64,000 bases of DNA from Robertmurraya sp. FSL R5-0851. GTDB lineage: Bacteria > Bacillota > Bacilli > Bacillales > Cytobacillaceae. The translations under genes were made by a program, and so were the position numbers. The stretch lies in the NCBI RefSeq assembly GCF_038002965.1, contig NZ_JBBOOE010000001.1, forward strand, positions 1,841,001 through 1,905,000. Direction: 5' to 3'. Numbering within the stretch: the first letter of the stretch is position 1; every line of letters begins with the position of its first letter. Positions 9,163 through 20,267 of the stretch are shown one piece after another. The notes under the pieces were generated by a model. It did no database searches. It saw only the letters and a list, made by a program, of their open reading frames with translations, and had not been told where the DNA came from.

Positions 9163-9172
9163 TAAGCGCTTA
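9163..9172 (+). promoter_or_regulatory. LacI-type operator A
   Basis: TAAGCGCTTA, a perfect palindrome in the longer context AGTAAGCGCTTAACT, 47 bases before the LacI-family start codon. It suggests autoregulation. Confidence 0.72.
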
Positions 9173-9218
9173 ACTAAATAAATTAGTGCATCTCAGATTT
9201 AAATTTAGGAGTGGAACG

Positions 9219-10217
9219 ATGAAAGTAACTATATATGATGTTGCCAGGGAGGCAAACGTATCAATCGCAACTGTCTCTAAAGTAATTAACAATACAGGTA
9301 GAATAGGAGAAAAAACAAAAAGAAAAGTAGAAGAAGTGATGAAGAGGTTGGATTATCAACCCAATATGATGGCTTCTGCTTTAATGGGGAAACAAACGAA
9401 AACAATTGGACTTCTTATTCCTGATTTAGCAAATCCATTTTTTTCTGAGCTTGCACGAAGTATAGAGGACCGTGCCCATGAGTTTGGATACAATTTAGTG
9501 ATCTGTAGTACAGATTATTTGCCAGAAAAAGAAAATAAATACCTTAATCTGCTTAAAAGAAAGAATGTAGATGGATTTATTTTAGCGTCGGGCTTTGAAA
9601 ACTTAGAAAAAGTAGAAGAAATGGTGAGGGAACACGTGCCTGTGGCCATTGTTGCTAGAGACTTCCCCATGTTTTCAATCAATACAGTTGCCCTAGACGA
9701 TTTTATGGGGGGGTATTTGGCAGCTTCTCATTTGATGAAGCTTGGGCATCAAAAGATTGCTGTTATTGCTAGGGATGTATGGAGTAATAGGGAAAGACTT
9801 CGTGGGTTTAAACAAGCATTAGAAGAGAAAAACATCAAGTTTATGGGGAATTTTGAATATATTGATGGTCCGAGCCATGTGGAGCCAGGTAAGAAAATGG
9901 CACTTAAATACCTTACAGATGATGATGCTCCTACGGCTATTTTTGCTTGCAATGATTTATTGGCGATCGGTGCTATCCAGGCTGTAAAAGAACTTGGAAA
10001 AAGCGTTCCTGATGATGTTTCTATTATGGGGTTTGATAATACACTTATTGCAACTATTGTGGAGCCACCATTAACTACCATTGCACAACCCATTCAGAAC
10101 ATGGGAAAAGAGGTTTTGGATCTAATTATATCTATGATCAATGGGGAAAAAAAGGAGGTAATGCGCTTAACATTATTGCCTTCGCTTGTAGAAAGAAACT
10201 CAACGTCACCATTGTAG
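9219..10217 (+). CDS. LacI family transcriptional regulator of the sugar-acid locus
   Basis: A 332-residue regulator. The N-terminal helix-turn-helix reads TIYDVAREANVSIATVSKVIN, followed by the hinge and a periplasmic-binding-protein-like ligand domain (TIGLLIPDLANPFFSELA near residue 60, FACNDLLAIGA near 245, MGFDNT near 275). The start at 9219 has AGGAGTGG nine bases upstream. Five copies of a palindromic AAGCGCTTA operator lie before this gene, before the first dehydrogenase gene and before the transketolase genes, so it is very probably the local repressor; the inducer should be the imported sugar acid or an early intermediate. Confidence 0.92.
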   Translation: MKVTIYDVAREANVSIATVSKVINNTGRIGEKTKRKVEEVMKRLDYQPNMMASALMGKQTKTIGLLIPDLANPFFSELARSIEDRAHEFGYNLVICSTDYLPEKENKYLNLLKRKNVDGFILASGFENLEKVEEMVREHVPVAIVARDFPMFSINTVALDDFMGGYLAASHLMKLGHQKIAVIARDVWSNRERLRGFKQALEEKNIKFMGNFEYIDGPSHVEPGKKMALKYLTDDDAPTAIFACNDLLAIGAIQAVKELGKSVPDDVSIMGFDNTLIATIVEPPLTTIAQPIQNMGKEVLDLIISMINGEKKEVMRLTLLPSLVERNSTSPL

Positions 10218-10325
10218 CAAGCTAATGGTATAGTAATATAATAGTATAAAATATTCAAAATTTTTTAATAAAACGGTTGATTTTTTATAAAGTATTGAAT
10301 ACAATTTAACCATCGAGAATTTGAT

Positions 10326-10335
10326 AAAGCGCTTA
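10326..10335 (+). promoter_or_regulatory. LacI-type operator B
   Basis: AAAGCGCTTA followed by ACTAA, identical over 16 bases to the copy at 15690-15705 (TAAAGCGCTTAACTAA). It is the first of three operators in the 296-base region before the dehydrogenase operon. Confidence 0.7.
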
Positions 10336-10404
10336 ACTAAAAATGAGTATCTTTGTTAGCTTAATAAACTAATAGAATAAAAGAATTATTTTTGACTCTA
10401 AAAG

Positions 10405-10414
10405 TAAGCGCTTA
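10405..10414 (+). promoter_or_regulatory. LacI-type operator C
   Basis: TAAGCGCTTA followed by ACACA; 79 bases downstream of operator B and eight bases after a TTGACT sequence at 10392. Confidence 0.7.
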
Positions 10415-10475
10415 ACACACTTGATTTAGCAACTATACATATCAGCATATTACGTATTTTTTTTGAAAATTAGAG

Positions 10476-10485
10476 TAAGCGCTTT
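10476..10485 (+). promoter_or_regulatory. LacI-type operator D
   Basis: TAAGCGCTTT, 71 bases downstream of operator C and just before the AAGGAG ribosome site of the first dehydrogenase gene. Spacings of 79 and 71 bases between the three sites would allow looping. Confidence 0.65.
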
Positions 10486-10513
10486 CTGGAAGAAAAGAAA
10501 GGAGCCGATCAGT

Positions 10514-11545
10514 TTGAAAGCATTAGTAAAAGTAAAAGCAGGCGTAGGTAATGTTTCTTTATTAGACATCGATGATCCACCATGTCAAGCAGATAAAGTT
10601 AAAGTAGAGGTGAAATACACCGGAATTTGTGGAACGGATCTACATATCTACCATGAAACGTTTAAAAACTATCCTCCTGTCATTATGGGCCATGAGTTCT
10701 CTGGTATTGTTTCCGAGGTAGGTACCAACATTACCAAGGTAAAGGTTGGAGATCGAGTCACAGTTCTTGGTTCCACTGCCTTAACCTGTGGAGATTGTCA
10801 CTATTGTAAAACTGGCCATTATATGTTTTGCTCCAATCGAAGAGGGATGGGACATGGGGTCGACGGAAGTTTCACGAAATATGCAGTTGTTCGGGAAGAT
10901 ATGATTTACAAGTTACCTGACCATGTGAGTCTTGTGGAAGCTGCGATGTCTGAACCACTTGCTTGTGCCGTGCAGGCTATTGAAGAATTAACTACGATTC
11001 AAGTGGGTGATACCGTTTTACTATCTGGCCCAGGTCCAATAGGATTGATTTGCTTATCTCTTCTAGCAGTTAAAGGGTGCAAGGTGATTGTAGCAGGTAC
11101 ATCATCGGATGCATTGCGATTGAAGATTGCAAAAGAATTAGGTGCTGATGTCGTCGTCAATATTGATGAACAGAATCTTGACAAAATTATTGAGGACGAA
11201 ACCAAGGGTTTAGGAGTAGATGTAACAGTTGAGTGTGCTGGTGCTGGTCCATCCATAAAGAGTTGTTTGAAGTCACTAAAAAAGTTAGGAAAACATATAC
11301 AAGTTGGCATAGCTGGTAGAGAAATTACTTTAGATTTTGACTTAATTCTTTATAAGCAAATCAAGGTATACGGATCACTCGCACATTCGATGAAAACGTG
11401 GGATCGTGTCATCCAAATCTTAGAACAGAGGAAGGTCAACTTAACCCCAATTATTACTCATAAGCTTCCACTGTCTGAATGGGAAGAGGCATTTCAATTA
11501 TGTGAGGATAAACAATGTGGAAAAGTATTACTAAGCCATGATTAA
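10514..11545 (+). CDS. Zinc-dependent alcohol/polyol dehydrogenase 1 (MDR family)
   Basis: A 343-residue medium-chain dehydrogenase. Catalytic zinc residues are in CGTDLHIY and GHEFSG; the structural zinc cysteines are in LTCGDCHYCKTGHYMFC near residue 90; the NAD site reads GPGPIGL near 175. It belongs with sorbitol, L-threonine and L-idonate 5-dehydrogenases and should oxidise a secondary hydroxyl with NAD(P). The start is TTG at 10514 after AAAGGAG; the frame extends upstream but runs through operator D. As first gene of the locus, it may turn a sugar acid into its keto form. The exact substrate is not known. Confidence 0.85.
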   Translation: MKALVKVKAGVGNVSLLDIDDPPCQADKVKVEVKYTGICGTDLHIYHETFKNYPPVIMGHEFSGIVSEVGTNITKVKVGDRVTVLGSTALTCGDCHYCKTGHYMFCSNRRGMGHGVDGSFTKYAVVREDMIYKLPDHVSLVEAAMSEPLACAVQAIEELTTIQVGDTVLLSGPGPIGLICLSLLAVKGCKVIVAGTSSDALRLKIAKELGADVVVNIDEQNLDKIIEDETKGLGVDVTVECAGAGPSIKSCLKSLKKLGKHIQVGIAGREITLDFDLILYKQIKVYGSLAHSMKTWDRVIQILEQRKVNLTPIITHKLPLSEWEEAFQLCEDKQCGKVLLSHD

Positions 11546-11594
11546 GTGGCAATTAATCCTATGATTCAATATGGAATAAAGGAGGAGAGTTGGG

Positions 11595-12686
11595 ATGTCT
11601 AGTATAAAAGTAGAGTCTTCAGATAATCTAGACTTGGCTATTCCTAAAATTATGAGTGTAGCTTATCTACAAAAACCATTGGAAGTGAGTATTGAACAAG
11701 AGGATGTTCCGTCCGTCTCTGGGAGAGAAGTGCTTGTCAAGGTGATGGCTGTAGGGATTTGCGGATCTGATGTGCATTACTATGCTCACGGCAGGATTGG
11801 AAATAGACTTGTTACCTATCCGCATATTCAAGGACATGAATGTGCTGGAATTGTCGTTGCAACAGGAGACAAAGTGACTCGGTTTAAAGTCGGCGACCGT
11901 GTTGCGGTTGAACCAGGTGTTGCCTGCATGTCTTGTTCGTGGTGTAAGGAGGGGAGGTATAATCTCTGCCCGGATGTACAGTTTTTATCTACACCACCAG
12001 TAAAAGGGGCATTTGTTCAGTTTTTAAAGCATCCTGAAGAATTTCTATTTCCTATTCCAGAGTCACTTTCATTTGAACATGCGTCCTTAGCAGAACCTCT
12101 TTCGGTAGCCATTCATGCAGTCAACAGAGGGAAGTTAAAACCCGGATCAACTGTAGTCATTACAGGAATGGGGCCCGTTGGGTTAATGACGGTAGTAGCT
12201 GCTAAAGCTTATGGTGCAAAAGAGATTATTGTAACGGATATGGAGCCCTTACGACTAGAGACCGCTCAAAAGCTTGGTGCTACCCAAGTCATTGATATAT
12301 CAAGTACAGATACAATTAAAGAGATAATGCAAGTAACCTCAGGGTTAGGGGCTGACCTAGTCTTTGAAACTTCTGGTAATGTAAGAGCCTTGCAATCTAC
12401 TATAGAGATGGTCAAGCGAGGTGGTTCAGTTGTAACAATAGGCTTTCCAAATACAGAGGAAGTCCCATTGAATGTGACACTTATGCTGCAGAAGGAAATA
12501 GATCTTTTCTCTGTGTACCGATATACCAACACGTATCCATTAGCCATTAATATATTGGTAGACTTAGGCAGTCAAATCGAGCCCATTATTACGGATCGAT
12601 ATTCTTTAGAACAAATAAACGAGGCAATGTATCAAGCTTATGCGAATAGAAGTAATAGCTTGAAGGTAATTGTTTTTCCAAACTAA
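11595..12686 (+). CDS. Zinc-dependent polyol dehydrogenase 2 (sorbitol/xylitol dehydrogenase type)
   Basis: A 363-residue medium-chain dehydrogenase. It has ICGSDVHYYAHGRIG and GHECAG (catalytic zinc), CMSCSWCKEGRYNLC (structural zinc), and GMGPVGLM (NAD site, near residue 190). The GSDVHYYxHGRIG stretch is typical of L-iditol 2-dehydrogenase and xylitol dehydrogenase. It has an N-terminal extension of about 20 residues and an excellent AAAGGAGGAG site. It lies 49 bases after dehydrogenase 1, in the same operon. Two polyol-type dehydrogenases in one operon suggest inversion of a hydroxyl through a keto intermediate, as in conversion between L-idonate, 5-keto-gluconate and gluconate; this is inference. 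Confidence 0.87.
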   Translation: MSSIKVESSDNLDLAIPKIMSVAYLQKPLEVSIEQEDVPSVSGREVLVKVMAVGICGSDVHYYAHGRIGNRLVTYPHIQGHECAGIVVATGDKVTRFKVGDRVAVEPGVACMSCSWCKEGRYNLCPDVQFLSTPPVKGAFVQFLKHPEEFLFPIPESLSFEHASLAEPLSVAIHAVNRGKLKPGSTVVITGMGPVGLMTVVAAKAYGAKEIIVTDMEPLRLETAQKLGATQVIDISSTDTIKEIMQVTSGLGADLVFETSGNVRALQSTIEMVKRGGSVVTIGFPNTEEVPLNVTLMLQKEIDLFSVYRYTNTYPLAINILVDLGSQIEPIITDRYSLEQINEAMYQAYANRSNSLKVIVFPN

Positions 12687-12771
12687 TTTTTTAACTAATA
12701 GATAGTGGGCACAAGGGGAGAAGAGAAAATTTCAATAAATATTACTTATTAAAATAAAGGGGGAAATAGAA

Positions 12772-13791
12772 ATGAAGAAACTGGTAAAAGGGACTACACT
12801 GGCAGCTGTACTAGCAATGACGTTAGCAGGATGTGGGGGTGGGGCAGAAACTCAGTCTGCCAATGCTGATGCTTCAGAAAAAAAACAAATCGTATTGGAT
12901 TTAAGTATACCTGAGCCAGAAGGCGCAAAGTTCGATGTGGCAGCAAAGGCTTTCAAAGATGAATTAGAAGAATTAACCGACGATCAATTAACCGTAAAAA
13001 TTCACTATAATAACTCGCTTGGTGGAGAACGAGAAGTGTTTGAATTAATGGGTATGGGCTCGTTGGATATGGCTGTTCAATCTGCTGGGCCAATGGGTAA
13101 CTGGGTTTCAGAATTTAATATGTTTGATCTTCCTTTCCTTTTTGATAATCTTGAACACGCTCGAGCTGTATTAGATGGTGAAATAGGGGATGAACTTGCT
13201 CAAAAATTTGAAACAGAAACAAATGTAAAAGTACTTGGTTGGGTTGAAAATGGTTTTGTTGCAACATCTTCAAATAAACCTATTAATAGTGTGGAAGACG
13301 TAAAAGGTTTAAAAGTTCGTGTGCAGGAAAATGAGTTGCAGATTGATGCATGGAAAGCATATGGAGCGGATGCTACACCAATGGCATGGACTGAGGTGTT
13401 TACCGGATTACAACAAGGGGTTATTGATGGTCATTCTAACTCATTAGCAACCATTCAAACATCAAAGATCTTCGAAGTTCAAAGCCATGTCGCTTTATTA
13501 GGAGACCGCTATTCTCCAGGTCCGATTTCTATTAGTAAGAAAACGTTTGATAGTCTTACACCAGAGCAACAAGAGGCTGTTATTAAGGCAGCTGAGCATG
13601 CAGAACCAATTGGAAGACAAGCAAACGATGACAAAATTAATGCAGCAGCTGATTTCCTTAAAGAACAGGGCTTGGAGTTAACAGAACCTGATAAGGAATC
13701 GTTTAAAGCAAAGACCGATTCTGTATATAAGAAATGGGCACCTAAAATTGGTGAGGAAATGATTGAAAAGGTAAAGAATTTTAAGTATTAA
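12772..13791 (+). CDS. dctP: TRAP transporter solute-binding lipoprotein (DctP family)
   Basis: A 339-residue extracytoplasmic binding protein. The N-terminus has a lysine start, a hydrophobic stretch and the lipobox LAGC (cysteine 22), so it is anchored as a lipoprotein. The DctP fold is seen in GGEREVFELMGMGSLDMAV near residue 85, LKVRVQENELQIDAWKAYGADATPM near 180, and VFTGLQQGVIDGHSN near 207. The conserved arginine in KVRV usually holds the carboxylate of the ligand, so the substrate is expected to be an organic or sugar acid rather than a neutral sugar. It lies in the operon between the dehydrogenases and the two membrane subunits. Confidence 0.93.
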   Translation: MKKLVKGTTLAAVLAMTLAGCGGGAETQSANADASEKKQIVLDLSIPEPEGAKFDVAAKAFKDELEELTDDQLTVKIHYNNSLGGEREVFELMGMGSLDMAVQSAGPMGNWVSEFNMFDLPFLFDNLEHARAVLDGEIGDELAQKFETETNVKVLGWVENGFVATSSNKPINSVEDVKGLKVRVQENELQIDAWKAYGADATPMAWTEVFTGLQQGVIDGHSNSLATIQTSKIFEVQSHVALLGDRYSPGPISISKKTFDSLTPEQQEAVIKAAEHAEPIGRQANDDKINAAADFLKEQGLELTEPDKESFKAKTDSVYKKWAPKIGEEMIEKVKNFKY

Positions 13792-13800
13792 GATCCTCTT

Positions 13801-13833
13801 GAGGGCAATATGAACGGTGAAAATATTGTCCTC
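13801..13833 (+). repeat. Stem-loop between dctP and dctQ
   Basis: GAGGGCAATAT pairs with ATATTGTCCTC across an 11-base loop, ten bases after the dctP stop. There is no T-run. Hairpins in this place often protect the upstream transcript, giving more binding protein than membrane subunit. Confidence 0.6.
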
Positions 13834-13853
13834 CCCTTTAAGGAGTTGAAAAA

Positions 13854-14345
13854 ATGAAGAGCATAAGTGGAATGTATATTCGAACCATCGATAAGTTAAA
13901 CAAATTTTTTGGCTATGCCTTAGCCTGCATATTGGCATTTATGACGATTATTATCTTCTGGCAAGTAGTTGCAAGATACGTAGTAGGCTCCTCGCTGGCT
14001 TGGTCAGAGGAACTGTCACGATTCTTGATGATTTTAATGATTTTAATTGGCTCTTCCTTAGCTCTTAGAGATAACGAGTTAATATCCGTGGAAATTCTTC
14101 CGGAAGTTCTAAAAGGAAAAGCTAAAAAATGGCTAATTATCTTAGTGCATTCCATATCGACTTTCTTTTATATCGTCTTAATGTTCTATGGGTGGAAAGT
14201 AGCGCAAAGTTTCGGAAATCAAATCGCCCCTGGAACAGGAATTTCAATGTTTTTTATTTACCTTTCCTTACCTCTTGGAGGCTTACTGCTTCTATTAAAT
14301 ACGATTACATGTATCTTAGAACAGTTTCTAGGAAGAAAGGAGTGA
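13854..14345 (+). CDS. dctQ: TRAP transporter small membrane subunit (DctQ family)
   Basis: A 163-residue protein with four hydrophobic segments. The family hallmark is visible near residues 35-65: FWQVVARYVVGSSLAWSEEL followed by SRFLMILM. It is the small permease component that works with DctM in sodium-driven uptake. It starts after AAGGAG and is followed four bases later by dctM, the typical dctPQM order. Confidence 0.92.
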   Translation: MKSISGMYIRTIDKLNKFFGYALACILAFMTIIIFWQVVARYVVGSSLAWSEELSRFLMILMILIGSSLALRDNELISVEILPEVLKGKAKKWLIILVHSISTFFYIVLMFYGWKVAQSFGNQIAPGTGISMFFIYLSLPLGGLLLLLNTITCILEQFLGRKE

Positions 14346-14349
14346 TGGG

Positions 14350-15624
14350 ATGTTACCAGTATTTTTTGTGTCTCTATTTGTCTTCATATTTTTAAGCGTA
14401 CCGATCGCGTTTTCTTTGGGTCTGTCAACTGTATTAGGCGTGTGGATGCATGATACCCTTCCTTTGGAGATTGTTCCTCAAAGAATATTTGTTTCTATGA
14501 ATTCCTTTCCTTTGATGGCGATCCCTTTCTTTATTCTTGCTGGAAATTTAATGGGTGCAGGGAGTATGTCAAAGAGACTAGTTAATTTCGCTAGTTCACT
14601 AGTTGGCCATTTTACCGGTGGATTAGCCATGGTGGCAATTGTTACATCCATGTTTTTTGCAGCTATTTCTGGTTCGGGAGCAGCAACTACGGCGGCTATT
14701 GGATCCATACTGATTCCTGCCATGGTAGCCAGAGGTTATAAAATTGAATATGCAGCTGCCAACCAGGCGGTAGCTGGTGCTCTAGGTATTATTATTCCAC
14801 CGAGTATCGCGATGATATTATATGGAGTAGCAGCTGAGGTTTCAATTGGCGATCTTTTCATAGCTGGAATTCTTCCAGGATTATTGATTACTTTTTCTCT
14901 ACTGATAAGTGCCTTAATAATTGCAAAGCGAAGAGGTTACGTTGGAGAAGAACGTAAAACTTTTCCGGATATAATTAAATCGTTTAAGGAATCTATTTTA
15001 GCCTTGTTAATGCCTATTATCGTCTTAGGAGGAATCTATTCAGGAATATTCACACCAACAGAAGCATCGGTCGTTGCGGTTGTATATTCTTTTGTAGTCG
15101 GGTATTTTGTTTACCGAGATCTGACCATACAACAAGTGGCTGATACATTAAAGAAATCCGCTATAAGCAGTTCTGTCATTATGATTGTAATTGGGACTGC
15201 TGGATTATTTGGGTTCTTTATTGAAATGAATGGTGTACCGGGTATGATTTATAGTTCTATATCTGATGTCATAACAAATAAATATATCTTCTTAATTATC
15301 GTTAATATCATTTTATTTGTGGCTGGGATGTTCCTAGAGGGTGGAGCAGCAATACTAATATTTGTGCCATTATTATTAGGTACTGCAGTTAATTTAGGAA
15401 TTGATCCTGTTCACTTTGGGGTCATAATGGTGTGTAACTTAGCGATTGGCCTAGTAACACCACCGGTTGGCATTGATTTATTTGTGGTATCACAGCTAAC
15501 GAAGTTATCGATTGTAAGAATTGCCAAAGCAGTCATTCCATTAATTTTTATATTAATCGTAGACGTGCTAGTGATTTCTTTCTTCCCGCCACTTTCTACT
15601 TGGCTGCCATCTTTATTAAAATAG
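14350..15624 (+). CDS. dctM: TRAP transporter large membrane subunit (DctM family)
   Basis: A 424-residue protein with about 12 hydrophobic segments, full length for DctM. Typical features are SFPLMAIPFFILAGNLM near residue 50, SGSGAATTAAIGSILIPAM near 105, GIIIPPSIAMILYG near 150, FTPTEASVVAVVY near 235, and GLVTPPVGIDLFV near 370. It forms the substrate channel with DctQ. It ends the first part of the locus: a terminator and a new LacI operator follow. Confidence 0.94.
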   Translation: MLPVFFVSLFVFIFLSVPIAFSLGLSTVLGVWMHDTLPLEIVPQRIFVSMNSFPLMAIPFFILAGNLMGAGSMSKRLVNFASSLVGHFTGGLAMVAIVTSMFFAAISGSGAATTAAIGSILIPAMVARGYKIEYAAANQAVAGALGIIIPPSIAMILYGVAAEVSIGDLFIAGILPGLLITFSLLISALIIAKRRGYVGEERKTFPDIIKSFKESILALLMPIIVLGGIYSGIFTPTEASVVAVVYSFVVGYFVYRDLTIQQVADTLKKSAISSSVIMIVIGTAGLFGFFIEMNGVPGMIYSSISDVITNKYIFLIIVNIILFVAGMFLEGGAAILIFVPLLLGTAVNLGIDPVHFGVIMVCNLAIGLVTPPVGIDLFVVSQLTKLSIVRIAKAVIPLIFILIVDVLVISFFPPLSTWLPSLLK

Positions 15625-15642
15625 CATGATTGTTTGATTAAA

Positions 15643-15680
15643 AAGCAAGATAAGTTCATCTTCTTATCTTGTTTATTTTT
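15643..15680 (+). terminator. Terminator inside the sugar-acid locus
   Basis: AAGCAAGATAAG pairs with CTTATCTTGTTT (the G-C core is nine bases), followed by a T-rich stretch. It separates the transporter unit from the transketolase unit. Confidence 0.75.
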
Positions 15681-15691
15681 CTCTATTTGGT

Positions 15692-15701
15692 AAAGCGCTT
15701 A
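15692..15701 (+). promoter_or_regulatory. LacI-type operator E before the transketolase unit
   Basis: AAAGCGCTTA followed by ACTAAA; shares TAAAGCGCTTAACTAA with operator B. Its place after a terminator and 48 bases before the next start indicates a second promoter under the same regulator. Confidence 0.7.
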
Positions 15702-15739
15702 ACTAAATATAATCATTTGAACTAAAGGAGGATTTTATT

Positions 15740-16594
15740 ATGAATTCATCGTTAAGTAAGGAAAAAATAATGCTTCTAAAAGAGAAAGCATCTGAGGCTA
15801 GGAAACTGATTATCGAGACCGTTCATCATGCAGGTGCAGGTCATATTGGTGGTCCAATGTCAGCAACCGATATTCTAACCAATTTATATTTTCATGAAAT
15901 GAATATCGATCCAGATGATCCAAAAAGTGAGGAAAGAGATCGATTTGTATTGTCAAAAGGACATTCAGCGATTGGTCTCTATGCAGTTTTAGCATTGAGA
16001 GGCTATTTACCAGTTGAGGAACTCCAAACCTTTGATTCATTAAATTCCCGTCTACAGGCTCATCCAGATATGAACACTCTACCTGGTCTTGACATGTCTA
16101 CTGGTTCTTTAGGTCAAGGAATCTCTGCGGCTGTTGGAATTGCGTTAGGGGCAAAGCTTCAAGGTAAAAGGTACCGAACGTTCTGCATGATTGGAGATGG
16201 AGAATCTCAAGAAGGGCAAGTATGGGAGGCTGCGGATATCGCTTCAAAATATGAACTCGATAATTTAGTTGGCATCCTTGATTATAACAAGTTGCAGCAA
16301 TTTGGTTGGTGTGGAGAAGAGAAGTCTAGAAAGAGTCCAATTCATGACCCAAAAGAAAGATGGGAATCCTTTGGCTGGCACGTGATTGAAATTGACGGAC
16401 ATAACCAAGAGGAAATAGAGAAAGCATTCAATGAAGCAAGAGAGGTAAAGACAAAACCAGTTATGATCATTGCTAACACAGTAAAAGGTAAGGGTGTTTC
16501 ATTTATGGAAAACCAATATCTATGGCATTCGCGTATCCCGACAGATGCTGAGCTAAAACAGGCGAAAAAAGAACTTGAAATGGGGGCATTGTAA
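15740..16594 (+). CDS. Transketolase, N-terminal subunit
   Basis: A 284-residue protein equal to the thiamine-diphosphate (PP) half of transketolase. Seen are AGAGHIGGPMSATDIL near residue 32, RDRFVLSKGHSA near 70, STGSLGQGISAAVG near 120, and the ThDP/magnesium motif GDGESQEGQVWEAA ending in the asparagine of LDYNKLQQFG near 183. Split transketolases of this kind are common in catabolic operons of Firmicutes and often act on unusual ketoses. The gene shares one base with the C-terminal subunit gene (TAATG), giving coupled translation. AAAGGAGG precedes the ATG. Confidence 0.93.
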   Translation: MNSSLSKEKIMLLKEKASEARKLIIETVHHAGAGHIGGPMSATDILTNLYFHEMNIDPDDPKSEERDRFVLSKGHSAIGLYAVLALRGYLPVEELQTFDSLNSRLQAHPDMNTLPGLDMSTGSLGQGISAAVGIALGAKLQGKRYRTFCMIGDGESQEGQVWEAADIASKYELDNLVGILDYNKLQQFGWCGEEKSRKSPIHDPKERWESFGWHVIEIDGHNQEEIEKAFNEAREVKTKPVMIIANTVKGKGVSFMENQYLWHSRIPTDAELKQAKKELEMGAL

Positions 16595-17553
16595 TGAAAA
16601 GTGTAGTTCCACAAAAAAATGTATCAATGAGAGACGTGTTTGGCGATACACTGCTTAAATTTTCATTGGAATCCAGTCGAGTGTATGCGATAGATGGTGA
16701 CTTAGCGAACTCTACCAAACTAGATACAGTGGCTAATGGCAATCCAAAGAAGTTTCTACAAATGGGAATTGCTGAACAGAATATGATGAGTGTTGCTGCT
16801 GGCCTTGCGACAACGGGCTTACAGCCATGGGCATGTACATTCGCTGCCTTTTTGTCCAAACGGGCAATTGACCAAATACAAGTTCAAATTGCACAGCCAA
16901 AGCTAGATGTAAAAATGATTGGTGCTTATAGCGGTTTATTAACTGGTGTTACAGGAAAAACACACCAGGCACTTGAAGATATTGCGATCTTCCGCGCTCT
17001 TGCCAATATGGTTGTTCTTGCACCTGCAGATGCCATAGAAATGAAGCAAATGATGGAGTTTGCACATAAGTACGAAGGGCCTGTCTATATACGAATCGCA
17101 CGTGATCCGTATCCTGTAATTGTTGATGGTAAATATCAATTTGAATTCGGGAAAGCTGCTACCTTAAAAGATGGAAAGGATGTAACGATTATTTCGACGG
17201 GGACACAAACATGTCGTTCATTAGCTGCTGCGGAACAATTAGATACAGAAGGGATTTCAGTCGCGGTTGTTCATATGCCTACGATCAAACCTTTGGATAC
17301 TGCTGCAATTATTAAAGCAGCAAAAAGCACAGGAGTTATTGTAACCGCTGAGGAACATAGTATTTATGGTGGATTAGGAAGTGCAGTGGCAGAGGTACTA
17401 GTTGAAGAATGTCCAGTACCGATGTTACGTGTAGGTGTAAGAGATGTAAACTCTGAATCTGCGAATAATGACGACTTGCTTGAAAAGTATGGGCTTTCTG
17501 AAGGACATATTGTAAGAACAGTGAAAGAAGCATTGAAGAAGAAACAAAAATAA
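16594..17553 (+). CDS. Transketolase, C-terminal subunit
   Basis: A 319-residue protein with the pyrimidine-binding and C-terminal transketolase domains. The catalytic glutamate lies in MGIAEQNMMSVAAGLA near residue 60; GLTGVTGKTHQALEDIA near 115 and ITAEEHSIYGGLGSAVAE-like sequence near 250 follow. It forms the heteromeric enzyme with the preceding subunit and moves a two-carbon ketol group from a ketose to an aldehyde. The absence of sugar kinases in the locus suggests that the donor is not phosphorylated. Confidence 0.93.
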   Translation: MKSVVPQKNVSMRDVFGDTLLKFSLESSRVYAIDGDLANSTKLDTVANGNPKKFLQMGIAEQNMMSVAAGLATTGLQPWACTFAAFLSKRAIDQIQVQIAQPKLDVKMIGAYSGLLTGVTGKTHQALEDIAIFRALANMVVLAPADAIEMKQMMEFAHKYEGPVYIRIARDPYPVIVDGKYQFEFGKAATLKDGKDVTIISTGTQTCRSLAAAEQLDTEGISVAVVHMPTIKPLDTAAIIKAAKSTGVIVTAEEHSIYGGLGSAVAEVLVEECPVPMLRVGVRDVNSESANNDDLLEKYGLSEGHIVRTVKEALKKKQK

Positions 17554-17577
17554 ACAAATGAGAGGGGACTGGAAAGG

Positions 17578-19005
17578 ATGCAAACGAGTATCGTAACGGA
17601 AAAGCTTTTTATAGATGGAAAGTGGATCGAAACGTCAAACACACACAAAGTGTATAACAAATTCACGGGTGAGCTTTTTTCAGAAATTTGTGTAGCTGAT
17701 GAATTGAGAATAAATCAGGCAGTTGAAGCAGCGGTCCATGCACATAAACATACGCAGTTTCCAGCCGATTTCCGCTACCAAGTATTGATGAAAACGGCTG
17801 AACTATTGTTACAGGATGTTGATGCTTTAGCAGAGATTATTGCGAAGGAAGGGGGAAAGCCGATCACTGATGCTAAGGCAGAAGTGAGACGTTCAGCCTC
17901 TACCCTACAGATCGCTGCAGATGAAGCAAAAAAGCTAGTGGGTGAAATCATCCCGAACTACAATGTACAAGGCCGCTTTCTTTATACAATTAAAAAACCG
18001 GTCGGAGTAGTCGCAGCGATTACACCGTTTAATTTCCCACTGAATTTAGTAGTTCATAAAGTTGCACCTGCACTTGCAGCAGGTAATCCAGTGATTCTAA
18101 AACCAGCATCCGACACAGCCACCATTGCTATTAAACTATGTGAATTGTTAGAACAAGCCGGTGTTCCTAAAGGTTACTTACACTGTGTAATAGGAAGCGG
18201 TGGAACTGTAGGGGAACAGCTTTTAAACGATGAAAGAATTTCTCATTATACATTTACTGGATCACCAGCAGTAGGAAAGCATATACAAAAAACGATTGGT
18301 TTAAGAAAAGCGACATTGGAGCTTGGGTCAAACTCTGCTACGATCGTTCATGGAGATGCGGACATTTCGAAAGCAGCCGCAAAACTTGCTAAGATGGCAT
18401 TTGCACATGCTGGACAAATATGTATTTCAGTACAGAGAATATTTGTTCAAAACTCAGTAAAGGAAAAGTTTCTTGAACTATTTTTAAACGAAGTATCTCG
18501 CCTAAAGGTAGGAGATCCTCTCGACCCAGAAACCGTTGTTGGTCCGATGATAAGTGTAAAAGAAGCGAAGCGAATTGAGCAGTGGGTAGAGGAAGCTGCA
18601 TCTGCTGGTGCAGAAATACTAACAGGCGGAAAACGTGAGGGAAGTATTTATTATCCGACAGTCATTACAAATATAAAAAAGGGAATGAAAGTGGCAGACG
18701 AAGAAGCATTCGCTCCAGTAGTAACTGTGACCACGTACGAAACCTTAGAAGAGGCGATTGAATTGGTGAATGATTCAAAATATGGCCTTCAAGCTGGTAT
18801 TTACACATCTGATTTAAGTCTTTCTTATAAAATTCCATACCTTCTTGAAGTTGGTGGAGTTGTAATCAACGATACTTGCTGTTTCCGGACAGATCAGATG
18901 CCATATGGTGGAGTAAAAGAAAGTGGGAATGGCAAGGAAGGTCCAGCTTACGCCATTCAGGAACTTGTTGAAACAGTAACTGTCGTAGTAAACCTCGAAA
19001 ATTAA
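17578..19005 (+). CDS. NAD(P)-dependent aldehyde dehydrogenase
   Basis: A 475-residue aldehyde dehydrogenase of full length. The cofactor-site PFNFPLNLVVHK is near residue 145, the glycine motif FTGSPAVGKHI near 220, the catalytic glutamate in TLELGSNSA near 248, and the catalytic cysteine in HAGQICISVQR near 282. It resembles the succinate-semialdehyde/lactaldehyde/glyceraldehyde branch. In this operon it should oxidise the aldehyde released by the transketolase, for example tartrate semialdehyde or glycolaldehyde. The family alone does not fix the substrate. Confidence 0.9.
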   Translation: MQTSIVTEKLFIDGKWIETSNTHKVYNKFTGELFSEICVADELRINQAVEAAVHAHKHTQFPADFRYQVLMKTAELLLQDVDALAEIIAKEGGKPITDAKAEVRRSASTLQIAADEAKKLVGEIIPNYNVQGRFLYTIKKPVGVVAAITPFNFPLNLVVHKVAPALAAGNPVILKPASDTATIAIKLCELLEQAGVPKGYLHCVIGSGGTVGEQLLNDERISHYTFTGSPAVGKHIQKTIGLRKATLELGSNSATIVHGDADISKAAAKLAKMAFAHAGQICISVQRIFVQNSVKEKFLELFLNEVSRLKVGDPLDPETVVGPMISVKEAKRIEQWVEEAASAGAEILTGGKREGSIYYPTVITNIKKGMKVADEEAFAPVVTVTTYETLEEAIELVNDSKYGLQAGIYTSDLSLSYKIPYLLEVGGVVINDTCCFRTDQMPYGGVKESGNGKEGPAYAIQELVETVTVVVNLEN

Positions 19006-19045
19006 TATAATCTATAAATAAATATTTTAGAAGGGTTGGTTAAAA

Positions 19046-20134
19046 ATGAAAACCTTTAAGATTGCCGTCATCCCAGGTGATGGAATCGGTCCCGAAGTGA
19101 TTAATGAAGGAATCAAGCTGATGACTCGAATCGCTGAATTGGACGGACGAATGAAATTCCAATTTACACATTTCTCATGGGGATGCGAATATTATTTGAA
19201 GCATGGGAGGATGATGGATGAGGATGGTATTGAACAGTTGAAAAGCTTTGATGCCATCTATCTTGGGGCAGTTGGCTATCCAGGTGTTCCAGATCATATT
19301 TCACTTTGGGATCTCCTTTTAAGAATCCGTAAAGAGTTTGATCAATACGTAAATATTCGCCCTATTACTCTTTTAAACGGTGCACCTTGTCCCATAGTAG
19401 GAGGAAGTAAAGATACGATTGATATGCTCTTCATCAGAGAGAATAGTGAGGGAGAGTATGCAGGAGCTGGAGACTGGCTTTTCAAAGGAAAGCCTCAGGA
19501 AGTGGTTCTCCAGACAGGTGTCTTTTCAAGAGTAGGTACCGAGCGAATTATTCGTTATGCATTTGAAACAGCATCTAGAGAAGGAAAGACTCTAACTAGT
19601 ATTAGTAAAGGAAATGCCCTGAACTATTCAATGGTATTCTGGGATCAAGTGTTTGAGGAAGTGGGTAAGGAATACCCAAATGTTCAAACCTACTCCTATT
19701 TAGTGGATGCAGCAGCTATGTTTATGATTAAGGATCCAAAGAGATTTGAAGTAGTAGTAACTTCGAACTTATTCGGTGATATACTAACCGATTTGGGAGC
19801 GGCACTGGCAGGAGGATTAGGATTGGCGGCTGGAGCTAATATTAATCCAGAAAGAAAGTACCCTTCCATGTTTGAACCGATTCATGGATCAGCACCAGAT
19901 ATTGCTGGAAAGGGCATGGCAAACCCACTAGCAGCTATTTGGTCTGCCAGTCAAATGTTTGACTTCTTTGGTTTCGAGGATATTGGGAAGCAGATCCTCC
20001 ATTCCATGGAGAAAACACTAGAAGAGGGTTCAATACTTACTCCAGATTTGGGTGGTTATGCTTCTACTTCAGAGGTTGGGGCAAGTGTGGGTGAAATATA
20101 TACGGAAATGATAAAATCACGGACATCAGTATGA
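19046..20134 (+). CDS. Tartrate / D-malate dehydrogenase family (decarboxylating hydroxyacid dehydrogenase)
   Basis: A 362-residue member of the isocitrate/isopropylmalate dehydrogenase superfamily. Seen are IPGDGIGPEVI at residue 7, FIRENSEGEYAG near 130, and the metal and NAD region NLFGDILTDLGAALAGGLGLA near 235 and FEPIHGSAPDIAGKGMANP near 272. The short FIRENSEGEY form and length match TtuC tartrate dehydrogenase and D-malate dehydrogenase better than LeuB. Such enzymes oxidise and decarboxylate a 2-hydroxy acid: D-malate to pyruvate, or tartrate to glycerate. It is the last gene of the transketolase unit, fitting a C4 hydroxy-diacid as the final pathway-specific metabolite. Confidence 0.87.
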   Translation: MKTFKIAVIPGDGIGPEVINEGIKLMTRIAELDGRMKFQFTHFSWGCEYYLKHGRMMDEDGIEQLKSFDAIYLGAVGYPGVPDHISLWDLLLRIRKEFDQYVNIRPITLLNGAPCPIVGGSKDTIDMLFIRENSEGEYAGAGDWLFKGKPQEVVLQTGVFSRVGTERIIRYAFETASREGKTLTSISKGNALNYSMVFWDQVFEEVGKEYPNVQTYSYLVDAAAMFMIKDPKRFEVVVTSNLFGDILTDLGAALAGGLGLAAGANINPERKYPSMFEPIHGSAPDIAGKGMANPLAAIWSASQMFDFFGFEDIGKQILHSMEKTLEEGSILTPDLGGYASTSEVGASVGEIYTEMIKSRTSV

Positions 20135-20226
20135 AACATAACCTAAACAACAGATAAAAGTGATAGTTAGACCTCGAATTTAGTTCTATTGAAGTAGATG
20201 ATAATTTAGAATAGTACAAGTAAATT

Positions 20227-20267
20227 AAAGGGGGTTGGTAGTTAAAGAATTACCAACCCCCTTTTTC
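20227..20267 (+). terminator. Strong intrinsic terminator ending the sugar-acid locus
   Basis: AAAGGGGGTTGGTA pairs with TACCAACCCCCTTT across 10 bases and runs into a T-tract. The rest of 20135-20419 holds nothing else recognisable. Confidence 0.92.

Follow-up and report, generated by a model that had tools for sequence, protein, structure and literature searches.

How a bacterium might break down a sugar acid with a split transketolase, and with neither a sugar kinase nor an aldolase beside it, is the question raised by a locus of Robertmurraya sp. FSL R5-0851 that lies in the stretch of DNA analysed here (the window: 64,000 nucleotides, positions 1841001-1905000 of contig NZ_JBBOOE010000001.1, in a genome of 5.3 Mb). 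A first-pass annotation had described a LacI-type regulator, two zinc-dependent medium-chain dehydrogenases/reductases (MDR1 and MDR2), a tripartite ATP-independent periplasmic (TRAP) transporter, a split transketolase (TktN and TktC), an aldehyde dehydrogenase (ALDH) and a TtuC-type dehydrogenase. Each was found in its place, all ten protein genes being open, collinear open reading frames (ORFs) in the window according to the ORF list and domain models, and the reported lack of a sugar kinase or aldolase held for all ten locus proteins in profile and domain searches. The whole is best explained, probably, by a LacI-controlled acid import combined with a dedicated keto-acid transketolase module. 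A little less firmly, we favour the view that this operon represents the acid-fed part of a Bacilli system not described before, whose transketolase would cut (2-deoxy-)5-keto-hexonates unphosphorylated. In sister clusters the same system would replace the kinase, the aldolase and the malonic semialdehyde dehydrogenase of inositol breakdown, taking inositol to D-malate or pyruvate plus a two-carbon unit that would pass through sugar phosphates with a pyrophosphate-dependent phosphofructokinase (PPi-PFK). Gene content, operator-like sites, pocket residues, the sharing of the module and the missing IolC and IolA models are computed results.

The transketolase pocket

The transketolase is made of separate N (thiamine diphosphate-binding) and C chains that scored over the cut-offs of PF00456, PF02779 and PF02780, both being 95% identical to their Robertmurraya korlensis counterparts. 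Alignment of the window TktC with the human and Carboxydothermus hydrogenoformans transketolases revealed that the phosphate site retains R13, S40 and R170, with Y112 standing for the His (human H416) and T120 at the place of an Asp (human D424). The canonical Arg-Ser-His-Arg phosphate set, whose roles we take to be those assigned in the human and E. coli enzymes, is thus incomplete, three of its four residues being kept and the His lost. Every one of the 17 clade rows, from 14 genomes, has the Tyr and Thr pair, and the pair is absent from the 42 other split-transketolase rows, which carry His in 33 cases and both His and Asp in 31; among the best 120 of 7998 scored database homologs, Tyr was found in 120 and Thr in 118. 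The same His is altered in the sulfofructose transketolase (H466 to D, changing RSFHR to RAFDR; PMC11659671), and an engineered TktA (R358I/H461S/R520Q) is described as active on 5-ketogluconate, yielding tartaric semialdehyde (PMC12016104). The simplest reading of the pocket would be a donor with a head group other than phosphate.

The three kept contacts (Arg, Ser, Arg), together with the PPi-PFK and aldolase genes that stand alongside in some relatives, would also fit an ordinary pentose phosphate transketolase that recycles sugar phosphates, with ALDH and TtuC serving an unrelated short acid pathway. We consider this very improbable: the Tyr and Thr change is constant, the enzyme occurs with IolD, IolB and IolE in genomes without IolC over cut-off, and ALDH and TtuC-type genes trail the transketolase genes even when they are non-orthologous. 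Further non-canonical kinds of pocket were noticed elsewhere, namely two tandem split-transketolase pairs (L044:1872-5410 and L048:10827-13540) with pocket residues N..D and L..D, and the L040 and L045 transketolases with a Y..N pocket.

Sister clusters and recurrence of the module

Transketolases with the same Tyr/Thr pocket were found standing with inositol genes in clusters of six genomes (G703, G510, G587, G588, G390 and G326), hereafter inositol-type, models of IolD, IolE, IolB and IolG being over cut-off among them. In the run of G703 (putative Bacillus xiapuensis; Table 1), LacI, ALDH and TtuC are 74%, 76% and 79% identical to those of the window, IolD reached 996 bits (cut-off 715) and IolB 367 (cut-off 205), and IolE was matched at 65% by BLAST; operator-like sites are present and the ATP-binding cassette (ABC) genes encode a sugar importer. 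No IolC match at E<=1e-40 was found in this genome, and IolA was not over cut-off. IolG, IolD, IolB and IolE should therefore give 2-deoxy-5-keto-D-gluconate, for whose further conversion neither an IolC nor an IolA model is present, and the transketolase, ALDH and TtuC lie in the same run. The G510 cluster contains TtuC (75%), a class II aldolase, three LacI-like genes (47, 65 and 60%), IolG, ALDH (69%), PPi-PFK and an MDR, as well as IolD (983 bits), IolE (402; cut-off 290), TktN, TktC and ABC genes. Those of G587 (Aeribacillus composti) and G588 (Siminovitchia thermophila) combine IolG, IolD, IolB, IolE and PPi-PFK with the transketolase, ALDH being seen only in G587. In both G390 and G326 the transketolase accompanies IolG-like genes, IolD and IolE, and a TtuC gene like that of Lysinibacillus lies some 11.6 kb away from TktC; IolB was seen in G390, and the G326 contig ends at TktC.

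IolC over cut-off was absent from five of the six inositol-type genomes, weaker sugar-kinase matches being present in those except G703. The IolA-type model TIGR01722 was over cut-off in 5 of the 9 genomes tested (the window genome, G395, G510, G390 and G588) and not in G703, G326, G734 or G889; G395, which is TRAP-type, has a separate canonical iol cluster with IolC. PPi-PFK was found in four of the six inositol-type clusters and in three other operons (Brevibacillus, Lysinibacillus and Siminovitchia terrae), which, with the aldolase of S. terrae and G510, fits the entry and disposal of the two-carbon unit via sedoheptulose or fructose bisphosphate. These sister clusters point to an apparent transketolase branch of inositol breakdown, which is the larger finding, and in the literature searched, judged by titles and abstract openings, we found no description of a transketolase route of inositol or keto-acid breakdown.

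In a maximum-likelihood tree of 27 rows, TRAP-type and inositol-type transketolases were interspersed. Ultrafast-bootstrap support was 83 for the grouping of Robertmurraya, Cytobacillus, Sporosarcina and S. terrae with the inositol-type Aeribacillus and 86 for that of inositol-type G510 with TRAP-type Brevibacillus, several other inner nodes having 45-74, so that the intermixing appears moderately supported. No TktN column separates the two types. Given this intermixing and the lack of a separating TktN column, the window donor is probably the same as, or very like, the inositol-type donor.

The set of TRAP genes, MDR1, MDR2 and split transketolase was counted in 14 genomes including that of the window (raw counts: Robertmurraya 3, Cytobacillus-type 4, Domibacillus 2, one each of Sporosarcina, Brevibacillus, Lysinibacillus and Salinicoccus, and one further). 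A TtuC ortholog of at least 76% identity was present in 12 of the 14; the Lysinibacillus gene is a 52% paralog and the Salinicoccus one was found only in broken frames. ALDH of G188 and LacI of G049 are each split into two ORFs. Transketolase, ALDH and TtuC-type genes are kept together though the genes for the last two steps change, which suggests that the chemistry holds them together. The gene set is rare. Among 193 genomes of the family, 7 carry a DctP ortholog (E<=1e-80); the TktC clade is represented in 7 of the 398 class genomes (E<=1e-110) and in 5 of the 377 from the order (E<=1e-108), and each of these counts includes the window genome.

Some neighbourhoods differ in composition. After TktC, S. 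terrae has a 61-residue remnant of the operon ALDH (75% identity; L004:11849-12031), and its stretch contains a sugar ABC importer, PPi-PFK and aldolase, with no TRAP genes seen. A 3-hydroxyacyl-CoA-dehydrogenase-like gene and an iron-containing alcohol dehydrogenase (Fe-ADH; called by BLAST in L007) adjoin the operon TtuC in Cytobacillus (L003:14520-17688) and Domibacillus (L007:14484-16739), and no such pair was seen adjoining the window operon. In L010:556-11796 and L102:4717-11164, a Tyr/Thr transketolase has as neighbours a short-chain dehydrogenase, a protein of 527-537 amino acids, a Liv-type ABC importer and an IolO-like enzyme, which scored 205 and 276 bits against the 5-keto-L-gluconate epimerase model (cut-off 300). 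L010 also has an aminotransferase, to which L102 has a 33% match, and the two loci may be a third feeder, perhaps for an amino sugar acid.

Regulation, import and the last two enzymes

The locus extends over 9163-20264 if the outermost operator and terminator-like hairpin are included (Table 1). A single operon had been proposed; the gene set stands but the single unit does not, because a hairpin divides DctM from TktN and each of the resulting units (MDR1-MDR2-DctP-DctQ-DctM and TktN-TktC-ALDH-TtuC) has its own LacI-type operator. Terminator-like hairpins number 10 in the whole stretch, against 6.4 expected. The MDR1 start was assigned to the TTG at 10514, with AAAGGAG upstream, instead of the 10463 given by the ORF lister.

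Table 1. Features of the Robertmurraya locus (window positions) and the gene run of the G703 sister cluster
Feature	Position	Strand	Description
operator TAAGCGCTTA	9163..9172		predicted LacI-type site upstream of lacI
lacI	9219..10217	+	LacI-family regulator; domain/profile models
operator	10326..10335		predicted, pattern match
operator	10405..10414		predicted, pattern match
operator	10476..10485		predicted; about 30 bp before MDR1 start
MDR1	10514..11545	+	zinc-dependent MDR dehydrogenase; closest models and structures of L-threonine 3-dehydrogenase type
MDR2	11595..12686	+	zinc-dependent MDR dehydrogenase; closest structures ketose reductase/sorbitol dehydrogenase
DctP	12772..13791	+	TRAP solute-binding protein, lipoprotein-like start; predicted model pLDDT 90.9
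DctQ	13854..14345	+	TRAP small permease; domain model
DctM	14350..15624	+	TRAP large permease; domain models
terminator-like hairpin	15643..15674	+	between DctM and TktN, separating two units
operator	15692..15701		predicted; second unit, before tktN
TktN	15740..16594	+	N-terminal thiamine diphosphate-binding half of split transketolase
TktC	16594..17553	+	C-terminal half of split transketolase; Y112, T120
ALDH	17578..19005	+	lactaldehyde-dehydrogenase/GAPN-like; proposed (R)-malic or tartaric semialdehyde dehydrogenase
TtuC	19046..20134	+	TtuC/DmlA-type beta-decarboxylating dehydrogenase
terminator-like hairpin	20227..20264	+	strong, 17 pairs, 3' of TtuC
G703 run	L114:15604-19982 and L115:1-16882		LacI-PPiPFK-IolG-IolD-IolB-IolE-IolG-ABC-MDR-IolG-TktN-TktC-ALDH-TtuC; an MFS (major facilitator superfamily) gene is also part of the run

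The pattern AAGCGCTTAAC gave 4 matches in the window against 0.03 expected from shuffles, all before lacI, MDR1 or tktN, and WAAGCGCTTW gave 5 against 0.25. Genome-wide, AAGCGCTTAAC occurs in 9 copies, the remaining 5 being inside unrelated ORFs, and the reversed control pattern gave 1 per strand. The palindrome was found again before the corresponding genes in relatives from several genera, with a like site before tktN in many, and related LacI proteins (47% to 97% identity) occur in both TRAP-type and inositol-type clusters. We read the predicted sites and LacI as a local, dedicated regulatory system.

DctP, DctQ and DctM were over the cut-offs of PF03480, PF04290 and PF06808. One DctP relative (42%; L086:5913-17210) stands with a PrpR-type activator, a nickel-pincer isomerase, an ALDH, an Fe-ADH, PdxA and a D-threonate-kinase-like gene (312 bits; cut-off 450), and another (50%; L084) lies beside CoA-transferase and thiolase genes of beta-oxidation type; these neighbourhoods thus place small hydroxy acids within the range of the DctP family. 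A 2-deoxyhexonate, idonate or gluconate, and a hexuronate are possible candidates for the imported acid. The two MDRs could each act on one of two epimers, oxidising both, or could stand in for an isomerase by reducing an aldehyde acid and oxidising it again.

Regarding the last two enzymes, the ALDH of the Lysinibacillus operon has both SSADH (succinic semialdehyde dehydrogenase)-type arginine motifs, ITRK and KFRNAGQ, which fits a carboxylated aldehyde substrate. The Domibacillus ALDH is 46% identical to the window ALDH and 67% to that of a carnitine-like cluster, L072. Relatives of TtuC at 73-77% identity also sit in clusters, of which only L072 was domain-checked (L072:5896-12471: a Pyr_redox protein, a Rieske oxygenase, ALDH at 46%, TtuC at 73% and a BCCT carrier); L062, L063, L068 and L071 have the same gene order judged by ORF size alone. 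Another use of the clade is seen in L066:5909-11840, where a TtuC relative (78%) lies by aconitase-type, HMG-CoA (3-hydroxy-3-methylglutaryl-CoA) lyase-like and arylmalonate decarboxylase-like genes, and L067 and L069 resemble it by ORF size. D-malate, an intermediate of L-carnitine breakdown in A. baumannii (PMC11353897), may be linked to TtuC by the relatives in carnitine-like and iol clusters, equally close ones being found elsewhere too.

The first-pass annotation had ended the pathway in tartrate: imported L-idonate or D-gluconate would become 5-keto-D-gluconate, L-tartaric semialdehyde and L-tartrate, the substrate of TtuC. We regard this version as possible but rather unlikely. It agrees with the score of TtuC against the tartrate dehydrogenase model TIGR02089 of NCBIfam (495.8 bits; cut-off 470.4), with the cleavage performed by the engineered TktA (PMC12016104) and with E. 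coli DmlA, described as active on both D-malate and L-tartrate; the A. baumannii carnitine-route malate dehydrogenase, however, is described as inactive on L- and meso-tartrate (both PMC11353897). TtuC also fell short of PRK08194 (480.8 bits; cut-off 501), both MDRs remained far under the L-idonate 5-dehydrogenase model NF007375 (173 bits for MDR1 and 222.8 for MDR2; cut-off 469), and the TtuC and ALDH orthologs of iol clusters would need to take 2-deoxy compounds. By Fischer analysis, 5-keto-D-gluconate would lead to L-tartrate and D-fructuronate to meso-tartrate, and both share the D-threo end of 2-deoxy-5-keto-D-gluconate.

A hexuronate is the less probable of these substrates, and we consider it unlikely. 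In this variant D-glucuronate imported by the TRAP system would be reduced to L-gulonate by one MDR and this oxidised to D-fructuronate by the other, the two replacing an isomerase. The transketolase would then yield erythruronate, ALDH meso-tartrate and TtuC D-glycerate, the conversion of meso-tartrate to D-glycerate being a classical activity of tartrate dehydrogenase. It accounts for two dehydrogenases and for the shared D-threo end, and the fifth-best relative of DctP in the PDB by sequence is 4xfe, which we take to be a glucuronate-binding protein. The operon nevertheless has no uronate-specific feature, and no uronate gene was noticed in the domain-annotated relative clusters, where no dedicated search was made.

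Proposed pathway and known systems

The reactions, what the operators do and which acid is imported are all inferred from sequence, and the pathway that we favour would run as follows. A LacI repressor would govern both units. The TRAP transporter of the first would import the acid, which the two MDRs would convert to a donor of 5-keto-hexonate type, D-threo at the cleaved end. The split transketolase would then pass the two-carbon ketol end to a phosphosugar acceptor, for entry into the pentose phosphate pathway, leaving a four-carbon aldehyde acid that ALDH would oxidise to a (2R)-hydroxy-dicarboxylate and the TtuC/DmlA-type enzyme would oxidise and decarboxylate. In the inositol-type clusters the sequence would be 2-deoxy-5-keto-D-gluconate, (R)-malic semialdehyde, D-malate and pyruvate: by Fischer analysis, the cut would leave OHC-CHOH-CH2-COOH with an R carbinol, and since this stays R, oxidation would give D-malate, a DmlA-type substrate. 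The earlier proposal that transketolase, ALDH and TtuC act in turn on an unphosphorylated keto acid gains from the pocket change, from the recurrence of non-orthologous ALDH and TtuC and from the finding of the block together with iolG-D-B-E. As to its ending, the TtuC-type decarboxylating step is retained, and tartrate as the product is put in doubt by the chemistry expected of the iol clusters, which would end in D-malate, and by the carnitine-like TtuC relatives; for the window we slightly favour D-malate over tartrate.

Several observations weigh against this reading. As regards the sister clusters, no IolB was seen in the examined stretches of G510 and G326; G587 has no TtuC match at E<=1e-90, and its additional iol cluster, which is canonical and includes IolC, showed no transketolase; and IolA-type models are over cut-off elsewhere in the G510, G390 and G588 genomes. 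An ALDH ortholog was present in just three of the six clusters (examined stretches, one contig ending after TktC), and a TtuC-type gene within 15 kb in four of the six, the 52% kind in two cases. The operator is missing from G390 and G326, and the G390 LacI is 47% identical. Four TktC columns (3, 7, 241 and 318) do separate the TRAP-type from the inositol-type enzymes, against 0.15 expected by relabelling. The window ALDH lacks the SSADH-type arginines, with VVHK and AFAHAGQ at the motif places, and TtuC, having similarly close homologs in clusters of very different make-up, is a poor guide to its own substrate. No IolD match at E<=1e-150 was found in the window genome, so that 2-deoxy-5-keto-gluconate would not arise there from inositol by the IolD route and the acid would have to enter via TRAP; as free 2-deoxyhexonates are rare in nature, a plain hexonate is favoured on this ground.

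Bacterial inositol catabolism is taken to depend, once the ring has been opened, on a kinase and an aldolase, a few alternatives being known. If true, breakdown by a transketolase would solve the task separately and with other energetics, spending no ATP on the sugar acid and reaching pyruvate via D-malate, and Bacilli genomes with iolG, iolD, iolB and iolE but without iolC would be read differently. It would also offer a natural enzyme for converting a keto acid to an aldehyde acid, a reaction until now achieved with engineered TktA, and the Tyr/Thr signature would be a means of finding such transketolases.

The canonical Bacillus iol pathway proceeds in the order IolG-E-D-B-C-J-A. The sister clusters share IolG, IolE, IolD and IolB models over cut-off with it but have transketolase, ALDH and TtuC for its kinase, aldolase and malonic semialdehyde dehydrogenase, and the window operon lacks iol genes. 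The apulose-4-phosphate transketolase AptAB is similar in its two subunits, unusual donor and sugar-acid catabolic setting, although that donor is phosphorylated and branched. The closest solved relative of TktC, the split transketolase of C. hydrogenoformans (6yaj/6yak; 294 bits), differs in keeping the His and a Glu-Asp pair. The route from L-carnitine to D-malate has the same last two enzyme classes (PMC11353897), and the Bacillaceae Rieske/BCCT cluster contains paralogs of both ALDH (46%) and TtuC (73%), whereas the aldehyde of that route comes from a Rieske oxygenase and not from a transketolase. One of the three changes in TktA R358I/H461S/R520Q affects the His changed here (PMC12016104), but that enzyme is man-made and single-chain, and the window enzyme keeps both arginines. 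The sulfofructose transketolase (SqwGH) of the sulfoglycolytic transketolase (sulfo-TK) pathway is likewise split, takes as donor an analogue of fructose-6-phosphate whose head group is a different anion, passes two carbons to glyceraldehyde-3-phosphate and has its head-group His replaced (PMC11659671). It differs in its sulfonate head, in its His to Asp and Ser to Ala changes and in a four-carbon product that is isomerised and cut again, and TtuC, TRAP and MDR steps go unmentioned in the part of that report drawn on here (PMC11659671); its RAFDR motif is not shared by the window TktC, which keeps the Ser and has Tyr for the His.

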